64,000 bases of DNA from Desulfoscipio geothermicus (GTDB lineage Bacteria > Bacillota > Desulfotomaculia > Desulfotomaculales > Desulfallaceae): contig JAENZP010000002.1 in the NCBI GenBank assembly GCA_016841205.1, positions 1-64,000 on the forward strand. The letters run 5' to 3'. The notes under the pieces were generated by a model. It did not search any database and was not told where the DNA came from. It was given only the letters and a program-made list of their open reading frames with translations. This document shows, piece after piece, positions 9,497 to 56,803 of the stretch (the first letter of the stretch is position 1; each line of letters starts with the position of its first letter). The translations under genes and the position numbers were made by a program.

Positions 9497-9587
9497 GGGG
9501 TCAGCCAACCAAGACGGGGTCAGACCTTGACAATTGACACGAAGTTCAGTGTCAATTGTCAAGGTCTGACCCCGTTTACCTGACCCC
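9497..9587. repeat. REP-like hairpin, full 58-bp element with outer partial copies
   Basis: The core 9516-9573 is two perfectly inverted 25-bp arms (GGGGTCAGACCTTGAC... / ...GTCAAGGTCTGACCCC) around an 8-nt loop. The arms carry the variant CAATTG where other copies have CATTTG, changed in both arms so pairing is kept. Extra GGGGTCAG (9497) and CTGACCCC (9580) flank the core symmetrically. It lies between convergent typA and the 9576 gene and overlaps the latter's stop, so it may also act as a bidirectional terminator. Confidence 0.9.
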
Positions 9588-10747: not shown

Positions 10748-10796
10748 GGGGTCAGACCTTGACATTTATAAATGTCAAATGTCAAGGTCTGACCCC
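10748..10796. repeat. REP-like element, 49-bp variant
   Basis: Two inverted copies of the 24-bp sequence, but the centre is altered: the left arm is shortened to GACATTT and runs through TATAAATGTC into the right arm, so the usual 8-nt loop is gone. Upstream, GACCCGGTT at 10715 pairs with AACCGGGGTC overlapping the left end. The right arm supplies the last six codons and the stop of the DUF523 gene. Confidence 0.85.
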
Positions 10797-21767: not shown

Positions 21768-21847
21768 GGGGTCAGACCTTGACATTTGACAAATCCTTAT
21801 ACTTATCTGAAAAGTTCGCTAATTAACCCATGCATTCCTGCAAGTTT
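21768..21847 (+). repeat. REP half-element with associated tail, copy A
   Basis: Single copy of the 24-bp repeat (21768-21791) followed by a 56-bp tail that contains AAAAGTTCGCTAATTAA, CATGCA and TCCTGCAAGT. The same repeat plus tail recurs immediately afterwards, giving a direct tandem of about 80 bp. No inverted partner is present. Confidence 0.8.
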
Positions 21848-21930
21848 GGGGTCAGATCTTGACATTTGACAACTTAAACTGAACTTAAACTAAAAAGTTC
21901 GCTAATTAATTCATGCACTCCTACAAGTAA
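21848..21930 (+). repeat. REP half-element with associated tail, copy B
   Basis: Second direct copy. The repeat core carries one change (GATCTTG for GACCTTG), and the tail again has AAAAGTTCGCTAATTAA, then CATGCACTCCTACAAGT. The middle of the tail has diverged (AACTTAAACTGAACTTAAAC), so the duplication is not very recent. Confidence 0.78.
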
Positions 21931-26979: not shown

Positions 26980-27003
26980 GGGGTCAGACCTTGACATTTG
27001 ACA
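26980..27003 (+). repeat. REP half-element, left end of the transposase unit
   Basis: Single 24-bp copy in GGGGTCAG orientation, 54 bp upstream of the transposase ATG. It is a perfect inverse of the copy at 27992-28015. It also sits in the pepF leader. Confidence 0.92.
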
Positions 27004-27057
27004 TTATCCCGATTATAATACCACATAATAGAAAAAAGTGGAAGGGAATGTGCCGGT

Positions 27058-28011
27058 ATGGCCCGCCCGTTACGCATTCAATACCCTGGCGCTTTTTATC
27101 ATGTCACGGCTAGGGGGAATGAAAAAAAAGCTATATTTAAAAGCAACAGTGACAGGTTACAATTTATCCAATATTTAGAGCTGTCATACGAACGGTATGA
27201 TGCCATTATACATGCCTATTGCTTGTTGGATAATCATTATCACCTTTTGCTGGAGACACCGCAAGGAAATTTATCACAAATTATCCAATACATCAACGGG
27301 TCTTATTCTTCCTATTTTAATACCAGACACAAGAGGGCTGGCCACTTGTTTCAGGGCAGATTCAAAGCAATTTTGGTTCAGAAAGACGTCTATGCACAGG
27401 AACTCTCTAGGTACATCGACCTTAATCCCGTGCGCGCCGGGCTGGTTACGCTCCCTTTTGATTATCGTTGGTCCTCTTGCCATTTCTACGTAGGCCGCAA
27501 TGATAAACCCGACTGGCTGCAAACTGACTTTATTTTAGGCTGTTACGGAAATAAAGAGAAATTAGCTCAAACCAATTATTATAATTTTGTTCAGGATGGA
27601 CTACAAACAAACATCAACAATCCTCTAAAAGAAACCTTAGCCTCAACTATCTTGGGCACCCCTGAATTTATTGATAATATACTAAAAAATATTGATGAGC
27701 AGGATATTAACGACACTGACCTGCCGGCGGTAAGACAAATCGTGGCAAAACCTTCTCTAAATAAGATTAAACATACTGTTGAGTCCGTAATCGGTAAGAG
27801 CCATCCGTTATATAGTAAATTTTCTATCCATATTAGTCACCAGCATAGTGGTTTGTCCTTAAATGAAATAGGCACTTATTTTGGCAAAAATGGATCTACC
27901 ATATGTCAGTCCAGCCGAAGGTTTAAACAAGAAATAGTCAAGAGCCAGAAACTCAAGAAAATTCTCGATGACATATTAGCAGAGTTAAAGTTGTCAAATG
28001 TCAAGGTCTGA
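27058..28011 (+). CDS. REP-associated tyrosine transposase with DnaA-C-like domain
   Basis: A 317-residue Y1/HUH-type transposase (Transposase_17/TnpA_REP family) expected to nick single-stranded repeat DNA through a tyrosine. The start MARPLRIQYPGAFYHVTARGNEKK and the HUH-equivalent LLDNHYHLLLETP are diagnostic; RYIDLNPVRAGLV and YRWSSCHFY follow. The last third (GLSLNEIGTYFGKNGSTICQSSRRFK) resembles the DnaA C-terminal helix-turn-helix, as in many Firmicute relatives, and probably recognises the repeat. The ATG is preceded by GGAAGGGA. The final residues LSNVKV and TGA lie in the right REP copy. The frame is intact, so it may still be active. Confidence 0.93.
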   Translation: MARPLRIQYPGAFYHVTARGNEKKAIFKSNSDRLQFIQYLELSYERYDAIIHAYCLLDNHYHLLLETPQGNLSQIIQYINGSYSSYFNTRHKRAGHLFQGRFKAILVQKDVYAQELSRYIDLNPVRAGLVTLPFDYRWSSCHFYVGRNDKPDWLQTDFILGCYGNKEKLAQTNYYNFVQDGLQTNINNPLKETLASTILGTPEFIDNILKNIDEQDINDTDLPAVRQIVAKPSLNKIKHTVESVIGKSHPLYSKFSIHISHQHSGLSLNEIGTYFGKNGSTICQSSRRFKQEIVKSQKLKKILDDILAELKLSNVKV

Positions 28012-28015
28012 CCCC
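27992..28015 (-). repeat. REP half-element, right end of the transposase unit
   Basis: 24-bp copy in inverse orientation to 26980-27003, identical base for base. It encodes the last residues and stop of the transposase. Confidence 0.92.
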
Positions 28016-28033: not shown

Positions 28034-29443
28034 TTATGACGAAACATCATTGCGGGAAAATGTCAAATGTGAAGGTCTGACCCCCAGTTGGCGGGCGACT
28101 CCTAAAAGGCGGCGGTAAAGCCCTCTGGTTTCAGGGAACTCCGGGTTGAAGAAAAGGCCTGGGTGAAAAAGCAGGCTGATGGCTCCGCCTATACGGCTAA
28201 TATGGGCCAGCAGGCGGTGAAAAACCTTAACCGGGTCCCGGGGATATTGATTGATTAGCGTACTTTCAATTATGGTCAGGGGAACTTCCCAGAGGGACAA
28301 AGCCCGGCAAGATAAGTGGTCATATGGTTGAAAAGGCCCGGCAATCCCACAGCGGTAACCAATGCAATCCGGATAACCAACGCTTTCGTCACAATACATA
28401 CCCATAGAAGCAAGAAAAGAAAATGATTTTTCCGGATCAAAACGCAGGTAATGCGCCCGGCCGGATACAATTGGCGTAGTCAAATAGGCACTTAATTCGG
28501 TTAGTTGGCTATTAAACCGTTCCGCGTCAAGCAAGGTATCGAAGTTATAATGAATGCCAACCGACCATTCGGAGGGGATTTGTCTTAACGCTTCAGGTAT
28601 TAAGGCTGACCCGCTTCTGGCCCCGAAACGGCCACCAGTACCGTTTAAGAAATAAAAAGATGAAGTGTAACCAAACATTTTTTCTACATCTGCCATCCCA
28701 GCTATATTTTCTAAATAAAAAGCTTTAGGATAAATGGCATTGCGCAGCATCCACCATAAATTAATTACACGAGGAGCTTTAAAGCTAAGTAAAGGTTGAA
28801 AAATCCTTAGAAACCGTACCGACTGTGTCCATATATCATTGCCGCGCAAAAGGTCATTGTCGTGGGAAAGAATAAGCATAGGCGGTTGTACTAAATCCTC
28901 CAAATCAAACCGAGGGTAGTTTAGTTTATAAAGGCCGGAGCAGGCGGCCACGAGGGCAGCTACGCCTTCATTAAAAGCCGGTACTGCCAATAAATTGGCT
29001 TTTTCCCTGGGACTCATTGAACTAATAAACCTCCCGTGGACATCCCGCAGGGGGTTTTCTCTTTCCTCACGCAAGCTAAGTAAATCAAACAGGTTGGCAA
29101 AAATATTCCAGGCCGGAATAAGTGTCCCGTGATCATGCCGGTACCAAATAGGGGCTTCCTTACTTGGCAAGCAGTTCCAGCCTTCTCCCTGAGGCCGGGG
29201 TAAAGGGTTCCAAAGAGTTAATTCCGTACCATTGAAAGGCACCTTATACGGGGCTTGTGGGTTAACAGAAGTATTAATATCAATTGGTATGGCAATTACC
29301 GGATTGTTAATATGAACAGCTTCTGCATAAGGGAGAAAACGAACCTCCGCTGTTTTCAGCATATCAACAGCTTCCCGGGTAAAAAAACGCCTCGTATGCT
29401 GAAGTATTTGCTGCCATAAATAATTAGCCTCGACAAGTTTCAT
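28034..29443 (-). CDS. Polysaccharide deacetylase-like protein
   Basis: A 469-residue protein resembling the large, divergent polysaccharide deacetylase-like group found in exopolysaccharide loci. Recognisable pieces are LILSHDNDLLRG (first Asp motif), SVGIHYNFDTLLDAERFNSQL (the HxxF/Y segment), GRAHYLRFDPEKSFSFLASMGMYCDESVGYPDCIGYRCG and the late SLLFHPGLF. It would remove acetyl groups from, or otherwise edit, a sugar chain; activity is inferred. ATG 29443 overlaps the stop of the upstream GNAT gene (TGATG), so they are coupled. The last codons run through a REP-like copy in which a TGA has become TCA. Confidence 0.72.
   Translation of the reverse strand: MKLVEANYLWQQILQHTRRFFTREAVDMLKTAEVRFLPYAEAVHINNPVIAIPIDINTSVNPQAPYKVPFNGTELTLWNPLPRPQGEGWNCLPSKEAPIWYRHDHGTLIPAWNIFANLFDLLSLREERENPLRDVHGRFISSMSPREKANLLAVPAFNEGVAALVAACSGLYKLNYPRFDLEDLVQPPMLILSHDNDLLRGNDIWTQSVRFLRIFQPLLSFKAPRVINLWWMLRNAIYPKAFYLENIAGMADVEKMFGYTSSFYFLNGTGGRFGARSGSALIPEALRQIPSEWSVGIHYNFDTLLDAERFNSQLTELSAYLTTPIVSGRAHYLRFDPEKSFSFLASMGMYCDESVGYPDCIGYRCGIAGPFQPYDHLSCRALSLWEVPLTIIESTLINQYPRDPVKVFHRLLAHISRIGGAISLLFHPGLFFNPEFPETRGLYRRLLGVARQLGVRPSHLTFSRNDVSS
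28061..28084 (-). repeat. REP half-element with one base change, inside a coding end
   Basis: 23 of 24 bases match; the one change (GTGAAGG for GTCAAGG on the plus strand) converts the in-frame TGA of the canonical repeat into TCA, letting the deacetylase-like gene read through as GVRPSHLT. It has the same orientation as the 27992 copy, 46 bp away. Confidence 0.85.
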
Positions 29444-30555
29444 CACCCCAACACCCCTTCAGTGTAAATTCTATTAATGTACCAGTTATCAATTGATCTT
29501 AATGAGGGTCGGGCAGCAGAGCCCTGCAGGTAATGAAGCACCATCCACTCTCCGCGAGGAATAAAATAAAATCCCACTTTACGCGCCGCCCGAGCAACTA
29601 AATCATCAAAAGGGTGGCGGTTCACTTTCCATGCCCTAACGCCCAGTGCACCCATTTTACGCAATCTTACCACCGCGTCTTTCAGTAAAACCGCCACCAC
29701 CGTTTCCATGTCTAACGGGTTAAGCTCGTTGGAGGCCGCTATTATATCCACAATATGCCCTACCGAATTATCGTCCAGAGAATAGGCCACCCAACCTAAA
29801 AGCCGGTCATCCAGATAAGCCGCCCGCACAGTGGCGCGGATGTGGAGGTTTTCAAATATTCGCCAACTTAAAAACCCGGCATCCCTTAAAATAGTTGTAC
29901 CTCCCCACTGTCTAACAAATGTCCGGCATAAATCTACACATTCATCAGGAGGAGTGGATAACGTCTTTAAACAAATATTTTGGGCCAAAGAATTATTTAT
30001 TCTAACCCCGGTACTGTATAAAGAGGCGGCTGAAAAAACACCGGACAGCTTACATAAAATTTTTATTCCTATAATCTTTACCTTGGATAAGGTGTTATTT
30101 TTCAGCAATACGTTAACTGCATCCGCATGCATTGGGAAAAACAATTGACCTATGTTGGTATGTGCTTCAAAGCCTGCCTGCAGGTTAGCTTTTATGGCAG
30201 GAGTGAATCCCCAGACTACCAAAGTCCCCTGGCTCTCCATATAAGCAAAAATCTTTTCAAACATTGCCGGGTATATTCCTTTACCTCTAATATCCGGGTC
30301 CAATAAGGCCTCCTCGGATTTACCGGTTAAGAATTCCCCGTCATGATCAATCATGCGTATGGGGATTTGTGCCAGCGTACCTAAAATCTTGTTATCTTTT
30401 TCTGCCACCACAAAAGGTATCTCTGGCAGCCCGGAATGCAAAAATTCCCACTTCCATTGAGTGTCCGTCCGGTCCTTCCCATAAAAATTATTGTGAAAAT
30501 CATTACAAGCATTGCCATCCTCAACATTGATAAAACGAATAACGATTGCTTCCAT
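29443..30555 (-). CDS. GNAT-family acetyltransferase
   Basis: A 370-residue protein with an N-terminal GNAT fold (about residues 1-150): FVVAEKDNKILGTLAQIPI, then the acetyl-CoA loop LLDPDIRGKGIYPAMFEKIF and VVWGFTPAIKANLQAGFE. A second GNAT-like half follows (RAAYLDDRLLGWVAYSL ... VVAVLLKDAVVRLRKMGALGVRAW). Proteins of this type in polysaccharide loci transfer acyl groups to sugars or lipid-linked intermediates. ATG 30555 is used; the start at 30570 has no ribosome binding site. It overlaps and is coupled to the deacetylase-like gene, so the pair may add and remove acyl groups on the same polymer (inference). Confidence 0.8.
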   Translation of the reverse strand: MEAIVIRFINVEDGNACNDFHNNFYGKDRTDTQWKWEFLHSGLPEIPFVVAEKDNKILGTLAQIPIRMIDHDGEFLTGKSEEALLDPDIRGKGIYPAMFEKIFAYMESQGTLVVWGFTPAIKANLQAGFEAHTNIGQLFFPMHADAVNVLLKNNTLSKVKIIGIKILCKLSGVFSAASLYSTGVRINNSLAQNICLKTLSTPPDECVDLCRTFVRQWGGTTILRDAGFLSWRIFENLHIRATVRAAYLDDRLLGWVAYSLDDNSVGHIVDIIAASNELNPLDMETVVAVLLKDAVVRLRKMGALGVRAWKVNRHPFDDLVARAARKVGFYFIPRGEWMVLHYLQGSAARPSLRSIDNWYINRIYTEGVLG

Positions 30556-34634: not shown

Positions 34635-37505
34635 ATGAATATTTTTAAAAAATTTTGTATAACAATAGTTGTTTCACTGCTGTTTCTAATACCCGTGCAG
34701 TATGTTTATGCCGCGCTCAGCGCTAGCACTTTAAAGAATTTATTTGATCAGGTAGACAATCAAACTAAATGGAGATCTATTAGTAATGCTCCGGACGGTT
34801 ATGAGATATCCTATAATGATTCTTATGTTATGCGAGCTTATATTTTAATGTATCAGACCACAGGGGACAAACAATACCTGGATAAATATATTAGTTTTGC
34901 CGATAGCGTATTGGCGCGCAGGGATAGCGTAGTAGGCAAGACTGATTTTCGCGGTTTAAAGCTGCCGGGCTGGAGCAGTAATCATTTTGATCCTAATACA
35001 ACTATGCATTACGCTATGGCAACCGGCATGATTGCTACGCCGCTGGCCGAATTTGCCACGCTGGTGAAAAGTGATGCTGCTTTAGCTAACTATAGAACTA
35101 AAGCCAACACCTATTTGCAGGCGGCCAAGGATGCTGTGGCCATTCACAATAAGCCGGCTAACTCTCAATACATCTATCGCGATAATAACTGGATTGAAGA
35201 TAGTACCACTTTGCATTTAAAAACACCTGTTAATATGAATATGGCTTATGGCAGTGCCCTGCTGGCCATTTACGAAGCCACGGGTGATACGGCCTACCTG
35301 GACAAGGGGAAAAAAATAGCCAACTATTTTAAGCAGAACCTTACTATAAACCCGGCCACCAACGGTTATTATTGGAAATACTTTCCTGGAGATTCCTCAT
35401 ACGGAAACGTTATTGAAGATATACCCCACGCTCTTTTTGCTGCTGAGTTTGTTTATCTAGCCTATCATAACGGAATTTTTAATGCTACGGACATGCAAAG
35501 GTTCGCTAATACCGCTACAAAGACCCTGGCTAAAAGTGACGGTTCAATTGCCGAACGTTTAGACGGCAGCGGTGTTAGCACACAACCCGGGAAATTTCTG
35601 CACTGGTTATGTTTTGAGCCCTGGGCACCATCTTTATTGGATACAAGCTATAACATCGTGAAAAGCAGGACTTCCACTTATCCGATGGAACTTGCCGGGA
35701 TAGCCATGTTAAATTATTTTAATTCCCCTCGGAATACCTCTACTACACCAACCTCAGATACACAGCGACCGGTGGTTACAGTTACTACCCCGGCTAGTGG
35801 CAGCCAATTGAAAGACACGGCGGTCTTCCAGGTCTCGGCCAGTGATAATGTCGGTGTGGATGGCCTGGTTCTGGGCTACGGACCTAGCGCCCAAGGCCCG
35901 TGGACGGAGGTGGCCGGCGCTGCTAATTTAATTAGCGGCTCCAAGACAAACGGGAATTGGCAGCTAAGCTGGGATGTTTCCGCTCTGGAGGACGGCACCT
36001 ACTATGTGTTAGTACGGGCCACTGATGCTGCCGGAAATATGGGCTTCTCAACTGCGGCTAGCTATGAAATTAAGAATATTGTTCCGGATACACAGCGACC
36101 GGTGGTTACAGTTACTGCCCCGACTAGTGGCAGTGAATTGAAAGACACGGCGGTCTTCCAGGTATCGGCCAGTGATAATGTCGGTGTGGACAGCCTGGTC
36201 CTGGGCTATGGTACCAGCGCTTCCGGACCGTGGACGGAGGTGGCCGGCGCTGCTAATTTAGTTAGCGGCACCAAGGAAGACGGGAATTGGCAGCTAAGCT
36301 GGGATGTTTCCGGCCTGGAAGACGGCACCTATTATGTAAAGGCCCGGGCCACTGATGCTGCCGGGAATATGGGCTTCTCAACTGCGGCTAGCTATGAAAT
36401 TAAAAATATTGTTCCGGATACACAACGGCCGGTGGTTAAAATGACTGCCCCGACTAGTGGCAGTGAATTGAAAGACACGGCGGTCTTCCAGGTATCGGCC
36501 AGTGATAATGTCGGTGTGGACAGCCTGGTCCTGGGCTATGGTACCAGCGCTTCCGGACCGTGGACGGAGGTGGCCGGCGCTGCTAATTTAGTTAGCGGCA
36601 CCAAGGAAGACGGGAATTGGCAGCTAAGCTGGGATGTTTCCGGCCTGGAAGACGGCACCTATTATGTAAAGGCCCGGGCCACTGATGCTGCCGGGAATAT
36701 GGGCTTCTCAACTGCGGCTAGCTATGAAATTAAAAATATTGTTCCGGATACACAACGGCCGGTGGTTAAAATGACTGCCCCGACTAGTGGCAGTGAATTG
36801 AAAGACACGGCGGTCTTCCAGGTATCGGCCAGTGATAATGTCGGTGTGGACAGCCTGGTCCTGGGCTATGGTACCAGCGCTTCCGGACCGTGGACGGAGG
36901 TGGCCGGCGCTGCTAATTTAGTTAGCGGCACCAAGGAAGACGGGAATTGGCAGCTAAGCTGGGATGTTTCCGGCCTGGAAGACGGCACCTATTATGTAAA
37001 GGCCCGGGCCACTGATGCTGCCGGGAATATGGGCTTCTCAACTGCGGCTAGCTATGTAGTTAAGAACCAGGCTTCGCTTCCTGCGGGTAACTTAATCGAA
37101 AATGGCGACTTTAGCTCTAACCTGCAAGGCTGGTCCAACAAAAATAACTCAGCTAAAATTAGCCGCGACTCCAGCGGTAACCCGGCTTTAACTAATACAG
37201 CTAACTATGATTTCTTCCAGGAAATCAACCTTCAGTCCGGCAATTATAAAATAAACGCCCGGACACACGCGGGTACATCCCAAAAAGCAGCCATGATTGT
37301 AATTGTGTTTTATCAAGCTGACGGCAGCCATACAACAGCTTACGCCTTCAAGCACCAACATACCGGTAAGACCTGGGAACCCATGCAAGAAATGAATATA
37401 CATGTGCCGGCCACGGTAGTCAAGGCCAGGATTTTCTTAACCGTTGAACCGGGTGATAGCGGTTACCACCACTTTGATGATGTAACATTAACAGCAGTCA
37501 GGTAA
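34635..37505 (+). CDS. Secreted multidomain protein: helical barrel, four Ig-like repeats, carbohydrate-binding domain
   Basis: A 956-residue exported protein. Signal peptide about residues 1-31 (FCITIVVSLLFLIPVQYVYA). Residues about 35-365 form a helical repeat domain like alpha/alpha-barrel glycan lyases or epimerases (YVMRAYILMYQTTGDKQYLDKYI; MNMAYGSALLAIYEATGDTAYLDKG). Residues 373-812 are four Ig-like modules of exactly 110 residues each beginning DTQRPVV. The C-terminus (about 818-956) is a jelly-roll domain (NLIENGDFSSNLQGWS ... GYHHFDDVTLT) shared with the 37543 gene. It probably acts on or binds the exopolysaccharide made by the locus. Expression seems controlled by the hairpin over its ribosome binding site. 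Confidence 0.8.
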   Translation: MNIFKKFCITIVVSLLFLIPVQYVYAALSASTLKNLFDQVDNQTKWRSISNAPDGYEISYNDSYVMRAYILMYQTTGDKQYLDKYISFADSVLARRDSVVGKTDFRGLKLPGWSSNHFDPNTTMHYAMATGMIATPLAEFATLVKSDAALANYRTKANTYLQAAKDAVAIHNKPANSQYIYRDNNWIEDSTTLHLKTPVNMNMAYGSALLAIYEATGDTAYLDKGKKIANYFKQNLTINPATNGYYWKYFPGDSSYGNVIEDIPHALFAAEFVYLAYHNGIFNATDMQRFANTATKTLAKSDGSIAERLDGSGVSTQPGKFLHWLCFEPWAPSLLDTSYNIVKSRTSTYPMELAGIAMLNYFNSPRNTSTTPTSDTQRPVVTVTTPASGSQLKDTAVFQVSASDNVGVDGLVLGYGPSAQGPWTEVAGAANLISGSKTNGNWQLSWDVSALEDGTYYVLVRATDAAGNMGFSTAASYEIKNIVPDTQRPVVTVTAPTSGSELKDTAVFQVSASDNVGVDSLVLGYGTSASGPWTEVAGAANLVSGTKEDGNWQLSWDVSGLEDGTYYVKARATDAAGNMGFSTAASYEIKNIVPDTQRPVVKMTAPTSGSELKDTAVFQVSASDNVGVDSLVLGYGTSASGPWTEVAGAANLVSGTKEDGNWQLSWDVSGLEDGTYYVKARATDAAGNMGFSTAASYEIKNIVPDTQRPVVKMTAPTSGSELKDTAVFQVSASDNVGVDSLVLGYGTSASGPWTEVAGAANLVSGTKEDGNWQLSWDVSGLEDGTYYVKARATDAAGNMGFSTAASYVVKNQASLPAGNLIENGDFSSNLQGWSNKNNSAKISRDSSGNPALTNTANYDFFQEINLQSGNYKINARTHAGTSQKAAMIVIVFYQADGSHTTAYAFKHQHTGKTWEPMQEMNIHVPATVVKARIFLTVEPGDSGYHHFDDVTLTAVR
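35751..37070 (+). repeat. Four tandem 330-bp coding repeats
   Basis: Unit starts at 35751, 36081, 36411 and 36741, each exactly 330 bp. Units 3 and 4 appear identical at the DNA level, unit 2 differs from them by only a few bases, and unit 1 is clearly diverged. This pattern indicates recent unequal duplication of the 3' units. Confidence 0.93.
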
Positions 37506-41454: not shown

Positions 41455-41478
41455 TGTCAAATGTCAAGGTCTGACCCC
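41455..41478 (-). repeat. REP half-element in the transporter leader
   Basis: Exact 24-bp copy in TGTCAAATG orientation, between the leader hairpin and the ribosome binding site of the transporter gene. It keeps the upstream frame open (VVKCQGLTP), which creates a misleading longer reading frame. Confidence 0.92.
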
Positions 41479-48400: not shown

Positions 48401-48424
48401 TGTCAAATGTCAAGGTCTGACCCC
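48401..48424 (-). repeat. REP half-element between YvrJ and DUF2922 genes
   Basis: Exact 24-bp copy in TGTCAAATG orientation, 22 bp upstream of the YvrJ start and just before a GC-rich hairpin. Confidence 0.92.
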
Positions 48425-49796: not shown

Positions 49797-49854
49797 GGGG
49801 TCAGACCTTGACATTTGACACTGAACTGCGTGTCAAATGTCAAGGTCTGACCCC
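49797..49854. repeat. REP-like hairpin, full 58-bp element
   Basis: Two perfect inverted 25-bp arms (GGGGTCAGACCTTGAC...GACAC) with loop TGAACTGC. It lies between the ArpU-like and sigma-like genes, next to the tandem terminators. The loop matches those of the 9516 and 55332 elements when they are read in inverse. Confidence 0.95.
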
Positions 49855-53090: not shown

Positions 53091-53131
53091 AGCATATTGA
53101 TTTTCTGTTCGTCTATATCCACACAGGTAAC
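53091..53131 (-). pseudogene. Fragment of UDP-glucose dehydrogenase gene
   Basis: 41 bp matching 56655-56695 inside ugd at 39 positions. It encodes the same NAD-fold stretch (VTCVDIDEQKINML). No further similarity extends to either side, so this is a short recombination remnant. Confidence 0.75.
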
Positions 53132-53153
53132 TGCAGGTAACTGCAGGTAACTG
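53124..53153. repeat. Three tandem 10-bp repeats
   Basis: CAGGTAACTG three times in a row, growing out of the GGTAAC end of the ugd fragment and running into the REP copy. Confidence 0.85.
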
Positions 53154-53175
53154 TCAAATGTCAAGGTCTGACCCC
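53152..53175 (-). repeat. REP half-element downstream of rmd
   Basis: Exact 24-bp copy in TGTCAAATG orientation, 8 bp beyond the rmd stop, at the boundary to the debris region. Confidence 0.92.
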
Positions 53176-55331: not shown

Positions 55332-55349
<18 letters not shown>

Positions 55350-55389
55350 TTGACACGTAGTTAAGTGTCAAATGTCAAGGTCTGACCCC
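55332..55389. repeat. REP-like hairpin, full 58-bp element
   Basis: Two perfect inverted 25-bp arms with loop GTAGTTAA, 7 bp beyond the stop of ugd and at the start of the epimerase fragment. It could act as a ugd terminator. Confidence 0.95.
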
Positions 55390-55396
55390 ATATCCC

Positions 55397-56803
55397 TTAA
55401 GCAATATACTGGCGGTGGTCCGGTTTGTGCGAGTTGCTTGACTTCAAGTCTTTATTTTCCACCACAGCCGCCCGGCCAATGGAGTAATACTCCACTCCCG
55501 CGTCCTGCATCTCAGCAATGCCGTGTATATTCCTGCCGTCATATACCAGCGGCGTGCGCATCAGTTTTGGATAGTCAACCGGCTGCACAGCTTTAATCTC
55601 GCTCCATTCGGTAAAGATAAAGCAGACATTGGCACCGGAAAGCGCTTCTTCCGGATTGTCTACATACTTGATGTTATACTCTTCCTCCGGGTACCTCTGC
55701 CTGAAATTATCACTGCCCACGGGGTCATAAGCATATACTATGGCTCCCCGCTGCAAGAGCAATGGAATATTGGCCAGAGACGGGGCCTCCCGCAAATCGT
55801 CCGTGCCGGGCTTGAAGGTCAGACCCAATACCGCCACTTTCAGGCCGTAAAAGGTAATCAGCCGGTTGGAAGCCTTCTTATATAGGAGTGTCTTCTGGTC
55901 ATTATTCACTTCAACGGCGGCGTGCACCGTGCGCAGGTTATAGCCGTGCTGCCTGGCCAGGTAATCCAGCGCTTTGGTATCCTTGGGGAAGCAGCTGCCG
56001 CCGTAGCCGATACCGGCGTTCAGAAATTTAGCGCCGATACGCTCATCAAAGGACATGCCCCTGGCCACGTCCTGGATATCCGCGCCTACCAGCTCGCAGA
56101 GGTTGGCAATGTCGTTCATATAGGATATTTTCAAAGCCAGGAAGTCATTGGCGGCGTATTTGATCATCTCCGCCGACCGCCTGCTTACCGATACAATGGG
56201 CAGGTTAAAGGGTTCGTATATTTTCATGAGCATTTCTTCAGCCCACCGGCTGTCCGTGCCGATGATAATTCTGGCCGCCTCCAGGGTATCCCGTACCGCC
56301 GTGCCCTGGGCCAGAAATTCGGGATTGCTGGCTACTTCTACTTTAACATCATGCACCAGGAAATCATGGATGAACTGCTCCACTTTGTCATTTGTGCCGA
56401 TAGGGACTGTTGATTTTACCACAACCAGGCAGTCCTTTTCGATGGTTTCCGCGATTTGCCTGGCCACGGTAGCTATGTAGGACAGGTTGGCGGAACCGTC
56501 GGGCTGCTCGGGGGTGCCGACACCAATGAAAACTGCATCGGCATCTTTGTAGGCTCTGGTGTGGTCGGTGGTATAGCTGAGCCTGCCGGCGGTGTAATTT
56601 TTCTGCATCAGTTCTTCCAAGCCTGCTTCATAGATGGGAGAAATACCGGCCTTAAGCATATTGATTTTTTGTTCGTCTATATCGACACAGGTAACCTGGT
56701 GGCCAACTTCGGCAAAGCATACGCCTGCAACCAGACCTACGTAGCCTGTGCCGGCTACTGAGATTTTGAAATTGTGGTTATTAGCCGGTTGATTAGTATC
56801 CAT
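55397..56803 (-). CDS. ugd: UDP-glucose 6-dehydrogenase
   Basis: A 468-residue enzyme that oxidises UDP-glucose to UDP-glucuronate. The NAD fold starts ISVAGTGYVGLVAGVCFAEVGH; STVPIGT, EFLAQGTAVRD and the catalytic Cys in GYGGSCFPKD are intact, as is LTFKPGTDDLREAPS in the C-terminal domain. The ATG is preceded by GCGAGGGACA. It is a single intact gene whose former downstream partner, an epimerase, survives only as a fragment. Confidence 0.95.
   Translation of the reverse strand: MDTNQPANNHNFKISVAGTGYVGLVAGVCFAEVGHQVTCVDIDEQKINMLKAGISPIYEAGLEELMQKNYTAGRLSYTTDHTRAYKDADAVFIGVGTPEQPDGSANLSYIATVARQIAETIEKDCLVVVKSTVPIGTNDKVEQFIHDFLVHDVKVEVASNPEFLAQGTAVRDTLEAARIIIGTDSRWAEEMLMKIYEPFNLPIVSVSRRSAEMIKYAANDFLALKISYMNDIANLCELVGADIQDVARGMSFDERIGAKFLNAGIGYGGSCFPKDTKALDYLARQHGYNLRTVHAAVEVNNDQKTLLYKKASNRLITFYGLKVAVLGLTFKPGTDDLREAPSLANIPLLLQRGAIVYAYDPVGSDNFRQRYPEEEYNIKYVDNPEEALSGANVCFIFTEWSEIKAVQPVDYPKLMRTPLVYDGRNIHGIAEMQDAGVEYYSIGRAAVVENKDLKSSNSHKPDHRQYIA

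Follow-up and report, generated by a model that had tools for sequence, protein, structure and literature searches.

The window analyzed here is a 64,000-nt stretch of the Desulfoscipio geothermicus genome (assembly GCA_016841205.1, contig JAENZP010000002.1, positions 1 to 64,000, forward strand). It carries an intact ORF for a 317-aa HUH/Y1 transposase, which is bracketed by two inverted copies of the 24-mer GGGGTCAGACCTTGACATTTGACA that agree at every base, as the first-pass annotation of this DNA had described (Table 1). The final codons and the stop codon of the gene sit within the right-hand repeat. Within the 24-mer, the first box reads TTGACAT and the second is counted as TTGACA. The outer copy matches the left end at 94% over 32 nt and overlaps the 3' end of an ORF on the minus strand (28034-29446). 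Genome-wide, the enzyme is represented by this one gene and one relative with 38% identity.

Table 1. Transposase locus and dispersed repeat copies in the window
Feature	Position	Strand	Remark
58-bp head-to-head doublet	9516-9573		AATTGACA variant in both arms
49-bp doublet	10748-10796		Left arm with one box only
Single copy	21768-21791	+	
Single copy	21848-21871	+	1 mismatch
Left terminal repeat	26980-27003	+	GGGGTCAG core, ACC, two tandem boxes
Boxes of left terminal repeat	26991-26997, 26998-27004	+	TTGACAT, TTGACAT
TIRYT gene	27058-28011	+	317 aa; HUH/Y1 nuclease domain, DnaA domain IV-like tail
HUH motif H60-Y61-H62	27235-27243	+	H60 and H62 invariant in 21/21 aligned sequences
Presumed catalytic Y119 in Y-xxx-NP	27412-27414	+	Y119, N123, and P124 invariant in 21/21
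Residues 232-315, predicted DnaA domain IV fold	27751-28002	+	Model, structure match (Z 13.2), and profile
Codon of residue 284 (Gln in the window protein)	27907-27909	+	Putative specificity residue in relatives, by covariation
Right terminal repeat	27992-28015	-	Exact inverse of left copy
Outer copy	28061-28084	-	1 mismatch; just beyond right repeat
Single copy	41455-41478	-	
Single copy	48401-48424	-	Absent from the syntenic place in the second species (G010)
58-bp doublet	49797-49854		Orthologous copy in the second species (G010)
Single copy	53152-53175	-	
58-bp doublet	55332-55389		Flanks complementary for 5 further bases

The HUH-type motif is intact, with HYH at residues 60 to 62 and Y119-xxx-NP downstream. 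The protein scored 79.3 bits against the NCBIfam model REP_Tyr_transpos (cut-off, 80) and 15.1 bits against an IS200 model, short of its cut-off of 55; no PHROGs family matched. A profile built from 21 long enzymes of this kind matched the TnpA_REP structure 4er8 over positions 47 to 143 (E = 0.003). The same profile matched DnaA chains (E = 1.1e-5) and the DnaA-DNA complexes 3pvp (2.3e-4) and 1j1v (0.0017). Pfam Bac_DnaA_C scored 16.5 bits on the window protein, below the cut-off of 31.5, and reached an E value of 0.1 or better in 9 of the 21 long members.

We also modeled the structure from a two-sequence alignment (pLDDT, 45 overall). The model was confident at residues ∼231 to 313, where blocks of ten between 231 and 310 had pLDDT values of 71 to 92, and was poor for residues 1 to 230, so the HUH fold is assigned from sequence. 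The modeled tail superimposed on 3pvp_A with a Z score of 13.2 (rmsd, 1.6; 84 residues) and on 1j1v_A with a Z score of 12.4, versus 5.0 for the best non-DnaA entry when the Foldseek matches were structurally realigned. The top five Foldseek rows were all DnaA (E values of 0.013 to 0.33), and no Foldseek match reached 0.001. Although Z scores up to ∼13 can arise by chance for helical models with this aligner, we accept the predicted DnaA domain IV fold of the C terminus because the structure agrees with the sequence profile. The analysis supports the DnaA-C-like DNA-binding tail suggested at first pass.

The repeat is dispersed well beyond the gene. With up to 3 mismatches allowed, the window holds 16 copies, versus none in 100 dinucleotide shuffles. 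Three belong to the transposase locus and the other 13 fall at 8 places, or 9 if 21768 and 21848 are counted separately; the first-pass annotation was right about dispersal and slightly high in its count of ten other loci. Seven of the 12 repeat intervals in the window lie outside any ORF of a crude ORF set. A genome-wide search, which had been proposed as a check, located the 22-mer core at 70 places (≤3 mismatches), and its reversed control yielded none. Two other kinds of repetition also occur in the window: four 300-nt direct repeats with 330-nt spacing (35757-37046), the other three being 87 to 89% like the first, and a pair of 41-nt repeats that are 95% alike (53091-53131 and 56655-56695).

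Among 16 genomes of the family, the repeat occupied 70 places in the window's genome (G000), 75 in a second species of the same genus (G010), and 1 in a third genome (G003), and was absent from the other 13, five congeners included. Close homologues of the enzyme were likewise confined to G000 (100% identity) and G010 (84%), with all remaining matches in family genomes at ≤46%. Within the family, the claim that enzyme and repeats belong together is thus supported. The kind of enzyme is more widespread: 57 of the 113 genomes of the class encode a relative at an E value of 1e-30 or better, and it is therefore not rare in the clade. We collected 122 loci of enzyme relatives with their flanks, the window included, and dropped one with too little flank. 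Across the remaining 121, the 24-mer was part of the best flanking repeat only in the window and at its orthologue L033; the refuting conditions named at first pass were for the most part not borne out. In genome G104, the repeat pattern occurred at 31 places; among the seven listed, six read GGGGTCAGCCCTTGACATTGGACA, identical to the repeat that borders L185, the enzyme of this genome, and one was a single base off.

The first-pass annotation had also raised the case of a repeat equally common where the transposase is lacking. In the family this was not so, but a Nitrospinota metagenome-assembled genome (MAG; G016) has the pattern GGGGTCAGNNCTTGACATTTGACA at 24 places (≤2 mismatches) and 16 exact 24-mers across nine stretches, and its best enzyme relative has 41% identity and a different flanking repeat. 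This MAG speaks against a strict one-to-one tie between enzyme and repeat. The stretches have 50 to 57% GC, compared with 45% for the window, and the loops of their doublets are distinct and 14 to 24 nt long, so these repeats look native; the gene for the enzyme may have been lost, or the MAG may simply not include it. Doublets of the exact 24-mer with other loops were seen in L052, L053, L055, L056, L068, L077, L081, L087, and L088 of this MAG. The outer flanks AAATTT/CACCAC and GGGTAC/ATTCTG recur around them, and the unit there seems longer.

Comparison of the flanks revealed a shared architecture. Flanking inverted repeats scoring ≥16 were present at 84 of 119 retestable loci versus 17 of 708 re-paired flanks; none was found at L280 and L281. 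The 84 loci at or above this score, among the 121, included 49 with the core, representing 48 distinct repeats, 23 from enzymes of ≥310 codons and 25 from shorter enzymes. In the long group, the sequence after the core had a period of 7 (142/230 matches; null, 69.9; z = 11.1), and in the shorter group a period of 8 (126/225; z = 8.1). The two boxes of one repeat agreed at 104 of 140 bases, compared with 75.3 ± 4.3 after re-pairing (0/5,000), and agreement persisted in a set thinned to 11 dissimilar repeats (51/77 versus 36.3; 0/5,000). Exclusion of L050, L226, and L246, whose core is GGTGCCAG, left 20 long relatives for analysis of specificity. Their layout is the core GGGGTCAG, exact in 18 of 20, then NNC, a box, and a second box; L278 departs from it with GGTGTCAG-ACA. 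Other layouts were also seen. The 38% relative in the window's genome (L002) is flanked by GGTGCCAGGCACC plus AACTTATT and AACTTAT, of the 8-bp type, and enzymes of ∼250 to 260 codons (L213, L253-L261, and others) have self-complementary flanking repeats around GGGACG(G)TTC.

Box number varies between copies. Some arms have only one 7-bp box (L131:10317, L184:9219, L165:10801, and window 10748), and a third ATTTGACA box is present in two copies that stand singly (L126:9948 and L142:9662), indicating that the box is a modular unit. Among clusters of copies <120 nt apart, plain head-to-head doublets with GGGG outwards made up 20 of 46 in G000 and 20 of 53 in G010; there was no tail-to-tail pair in any cluster of either genome. 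The commonest doublet is 58 bp long, with the loop GNAGTTNA or a near form of it between CAC and GTG. It folds into one hairpin (-30.2 kcal/mol); the hairpin that doublets can form is 25 bp. Loops range from a few to some tens of bases and contain no remnant of the transposase gene. At L166:9115 in G010, a copy merges with a hairpin that belongs to another repeat family (GGGGACGGTTCTC type), with a third repeat type just upstream.

Sequence variants are often common to both arms of one doublet, with exceptions such as L152, L156, and L160. At 9516, both arms read AATTGACA, whereas both arms of the facing G010 doublet read ATTTGACA, so a change can affect both arms at once. Nineteen shared loci have one arrangement in both species; at 17 of them, 17 of 600 arm bases differed, a figure lowered by preselection of copies at ≤5 mismatches, while the aligned flanks were 88.6% identical. 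The bases directly outside doublets were complementary for ≥3 positions in 13 of 40 cases (1.9 expected) and for ≥5 in 6 of 40 (0.32 expected), counting some orthologous pairs among the 40; neither level was reached in 20,000 re-pairings. This inverted complementarity extends up to 11 bases, with examples at L148:17668, L157:9418, L165:10801, and window 55332. Possible sources are template switching at the hairpin and the insertion of elements into palindromes.

We then compared variable residues of the long enzymes with variable bases of their repeats. Residue 284, in the recognition helix, and repeat position 14, which is box base 3, ranked first of 2,951 variable pairs (mutual information, 1.55 bits; z = 7.0). 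The pairs follow a simple rule: R or K with G, M with C, Q with A, and L or F with T. Examples among relatives are Lys with TTGACAT (L265), Met with TTCACAT (L267), Leu with TTTAGTT (L277), and Gln with TTAACTT (L270). The rule fits 29 of 40 box bases in the 20 repeats (null, 10.3; 0/20,000), the same 20 sequences in which it was first spotted; 18 of these repeats have one box or both in agreement with it. Leave-one-out prediction was correct for 15.5 of 20, versus 6 for the commonest base, and no family-wise permutation over all pairs (0/1,000) equaled the excess at residue 284. This residue would correspond to His439 of DnaA and Arg22 of LacI.

When mapped on a tree built from the N-terminal part, the two traits do not cluster (11 changes versus 11.5 when shuffled, and 10 versus 11.3). 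Among ten nearest pairs that share no member, residue and base both differ in seven and both agree in two; in the tenth, the window protein and L185, the residue differs and the base is the same. Five of the seven doubly different pairs obey the rule fully at position 14, the exceptions involving L266 and L271. On the other side, enzymes whose C-terminal domains are more alike overall do not have significantly more similar boxes (Mantel r = 0.13, P = 0.20). Five loci found in Bacillota, Nitrospinota, and a Legionella plasmid belong to another helix-turn-helix (HTH) subgroup; each has R or K together with G at position 14 (5/5), which amounts to about one independent event in a single HTH subgroup; the rule had been set before their HTH was examined, with the repeats of L093 and L186 already known.

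The rule has exceptions. The window protein combines Gln284 with a G box, as does its orthologue L033, and L271 combines Gln with G/C; the window protein and L271 are the two failures among the 20. Families with 8-bp boxes follow it only partly, with K alongside TTAAACTT or a near form in L038, L049, L051, and L224, and further exceptions at L197 and L205. The covariation suggests that residue 284 largely sets box base 3 in the long relatives, and so ties such enzymes to their own repeats; the rule leaves the G in the window protein's own box unexplained. We rejected residue 77 and position 9 as a second code: the pair was not significant family-wise (486/1,000), and at test loci it held for H with G (18/19) and R with G (4/4) but not for Q with A (2/17). 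It correctly predicted Q in L224 and L212 and wrongly predicted H in L038, L049, and L051 (Q), and L317, outside the 20, pairs Q with G.

The transposase gene occupies the same locus in G000 and G010, with DNA 89 to 90% identical, indicating that it was inherited in place. In G010, the inner right repeat is separated from the outer copy by a gene for glutamine synthetase (L126:4386-6012; Pfam Gln-synt_C, E = 1.9e-130); the corresponding interval in G000 is ∼45 bp. For the dispersed elements, we could place both flanks of 51 of 99 in the other species (22/46 from G000 and 29/53 from G010; shared loci are counted from both sides). Forty-three were filled in both species. Four of the eight candidates were a repeat facing unrelated DNA of roughly similar length (window 48401, L125:9392, L135:18514, and L165:10801). 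The other four were uninformative: the placement of L160:9263 was offset by -1989, L125:8031 is part of a local duplication, the counterpart of L143:9422 is a 698-bp segment, and that of L165:15886 resembles, by eye, a decayed copy. None of the 51 placed elements had a clean empty site between these two species. Relatives of L265 (E = 1e-25) were found in 1 of 72,556 plasmid records, a hit that was added to the test loci, and 0 of 50,697 phage records; scans of IMG/VR recovered no locus with L265 as the query and, with query A2, one partial match that covered 20 residues where a contig ends.

Several readings of the locus can be set against these observations. The first-pass annotation had seen a complete REP/RAYT system. 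In a canonical system of that kind (a REPtron), the target of the enzyme would be a palindromic REP hairpin that has a GTAG-type foot. The inverted repeats at the flanks, the dispersed copies, and doublets forming REPIN-like hairpins would all suit such a system, as would the REP_Tyr_transpos score just under its cut-off. However, the GT[AG]G foot is absent from the repeats, which start with GGGGTCAG, and folding of a lone 24-mer yields no stable hairpin (-2.1 kcal/mol; z = -1.0). The terminal repeats at both gene ends instead fit GGGGWSAS, the consensus given in the main text of PMC3733652, and the tail resembles DnaA domain IV rather than the ∼20-residue extension that PMC8266576 describes in its text for group 2 enzymes such as that of E. 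coli. The canonical reading is largely refuted on these grounds, and we regard it as quite unlikely. The features of the locus are those of a TIRYT/TIRtron, the kind filed as TnpA_REP subclass 2.1, to which it probably belongs: an HUH motif with a single Tyr in Y-xxx-NP, GGGGWSAS terminal repeats, a Bac_DnaA_C-like HTH extension, and a low gene copy number.

Self-mobility offers another explanation, that of an ordinary insertion sequence whose deletion derivatives are the doublets. It would account for the terminal inverted repeats bounding the gene and for the doublets, which look like minimal miniature inverted-repeat transposable elements (MITEs) with a conserved loop, but it is unlikely given one gene and one 38% relative in the genome, the same gene position in two species, the weak IS200 score, short loops free of any trace of the gene, and the near absence of L265 relatives from plasmids, phages, and IMG/VR. 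Alternatively, the host might keep the repeats as terminators or as sites for gyrase or a nucleoid protein, with the enzyme a bystander between two copies. Orthologous arms do differ less than their flanks (17/600 versus ∼11%, in copies preselected by similarity), and most repeat intervals in the window overlap no ORF. Nevertheless, repeat sequence tracks the enzyme across genomes and the residue-base covariation links such enzymes to their repeats, making a bystander role very improbable.

We consider it probable that the locus is a TIRtron whose repeat has two modules, the core being read by the HUH domain and the boxes, as duplex DNA, by the DnaA domain IV-like tail. On this reading, a single-copy chromosomal HUH/Y1 gene has its recognition sequence on both sides, and further copies of that sequence are scattered as singles and head-to-head doublets. 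The 5' module, GGGGTCAG, would be read and nicked by the HUH domain, with the cut presumably adjoining GGGG. The two seven-base boxes of the 3' module would be bound as duplex by one C-terminal domain each, and the predicted target of the window enzyme is duplex TTGACATTTGACA. Docking on the duplex could place the nuclease on an adjoining opened single strand, for example at a replication fork, and doublets may be duplicated or mobilized in trans by an enzyme whose own gene keeps its place.

A broader proposal, to which we give somewhat less than even chances, is that TIRYTs form a separate class of HUH enzymes in which an origin-recognition domain directs the protein to double-stranded DNA. 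The terminal repeat would then be like a small rolling-circle origin, with a nick core and a pair of DnaA-type iterons; one recognition-helix residue could change the target; and enzyme and repeat families would diversify by matched single substitutions. The tandem boxes and the rule could explain why repeat families differ from enzyme to enzyme, and they suggest that an HUH nickase may have a duplex target predictable from its protein sequence.

The kind of element is itself already known. TIRYTs were named in 2013 by Di Nocera et al. (PMC3733652), and Quentin et al. in 2018 placed them as subclass 2.1 of TnpA_REP (PMC6006769); according to the text of the latter, subclass 2.1.2 matches RAYT group 1 of Bertels 2017 and has no REP-like sequence near its genes. 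Within the literature searched, the term TIRYT appeared only in these two papers, and no description of tandem boxes or of a residue-base rule was found (Bertels 2017 lay outside this scope). Apart from figures and supplements, the text of PMC3733652 does not contain "direct repeat," "heptamer," "iteron," or "DnaA," and that of PMC6006769 has no direct repeats or iterons. What appears to be new is the account of repeat recognition, with tandem boxes and the residue 284 rule, proposed from comparative sequence analysis. It bears on the role of the extra DnaA-like domain, which was left open in 2018: the text of PMC6006769 notes that the TIR consensus is unlike DnaA boxes and raises the possibilities that the domain does not recognize the target or that it recognizes a novel one.

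The window locus shares with the TIRYTs/TIRtrons of PMC3733652 a Y1 gene with GGGGWSAS terminal inverted repeats, dispersed copies, and dimers; it differs in the tandem boxes and the reader domain, which the main text there does not describe. Like TnpA_REP subclass 2.1.2, as presented in the text of PMC6006769, the enzyme is long, with a Bac_DnaA_C-like C-terminal extension and a patchy distribution across phyla, and the boxes lie 3' of the consensus considered there. It has the HUH domain in common with E. coli TnpA_REP (4er8), which, by the text of PMC8266576, reads a hairpin with a GTAG foot and has a short C-terminal extension and no DnaA domain. As in REPINs, the doublets form a single hairpin, with 20 plain doublets in each species. 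Finally, residues 232 to 315 are predicted to share their fold with DnaA domain IV bound to the DnaA box (3pvp and 1j1v). By eye, the 3' half of the DnaA box TTATNCACA resembles some of the boxes, such as TTTCACA, whereas the boxes described here are 7 bp long, tandem, and variable between systems.
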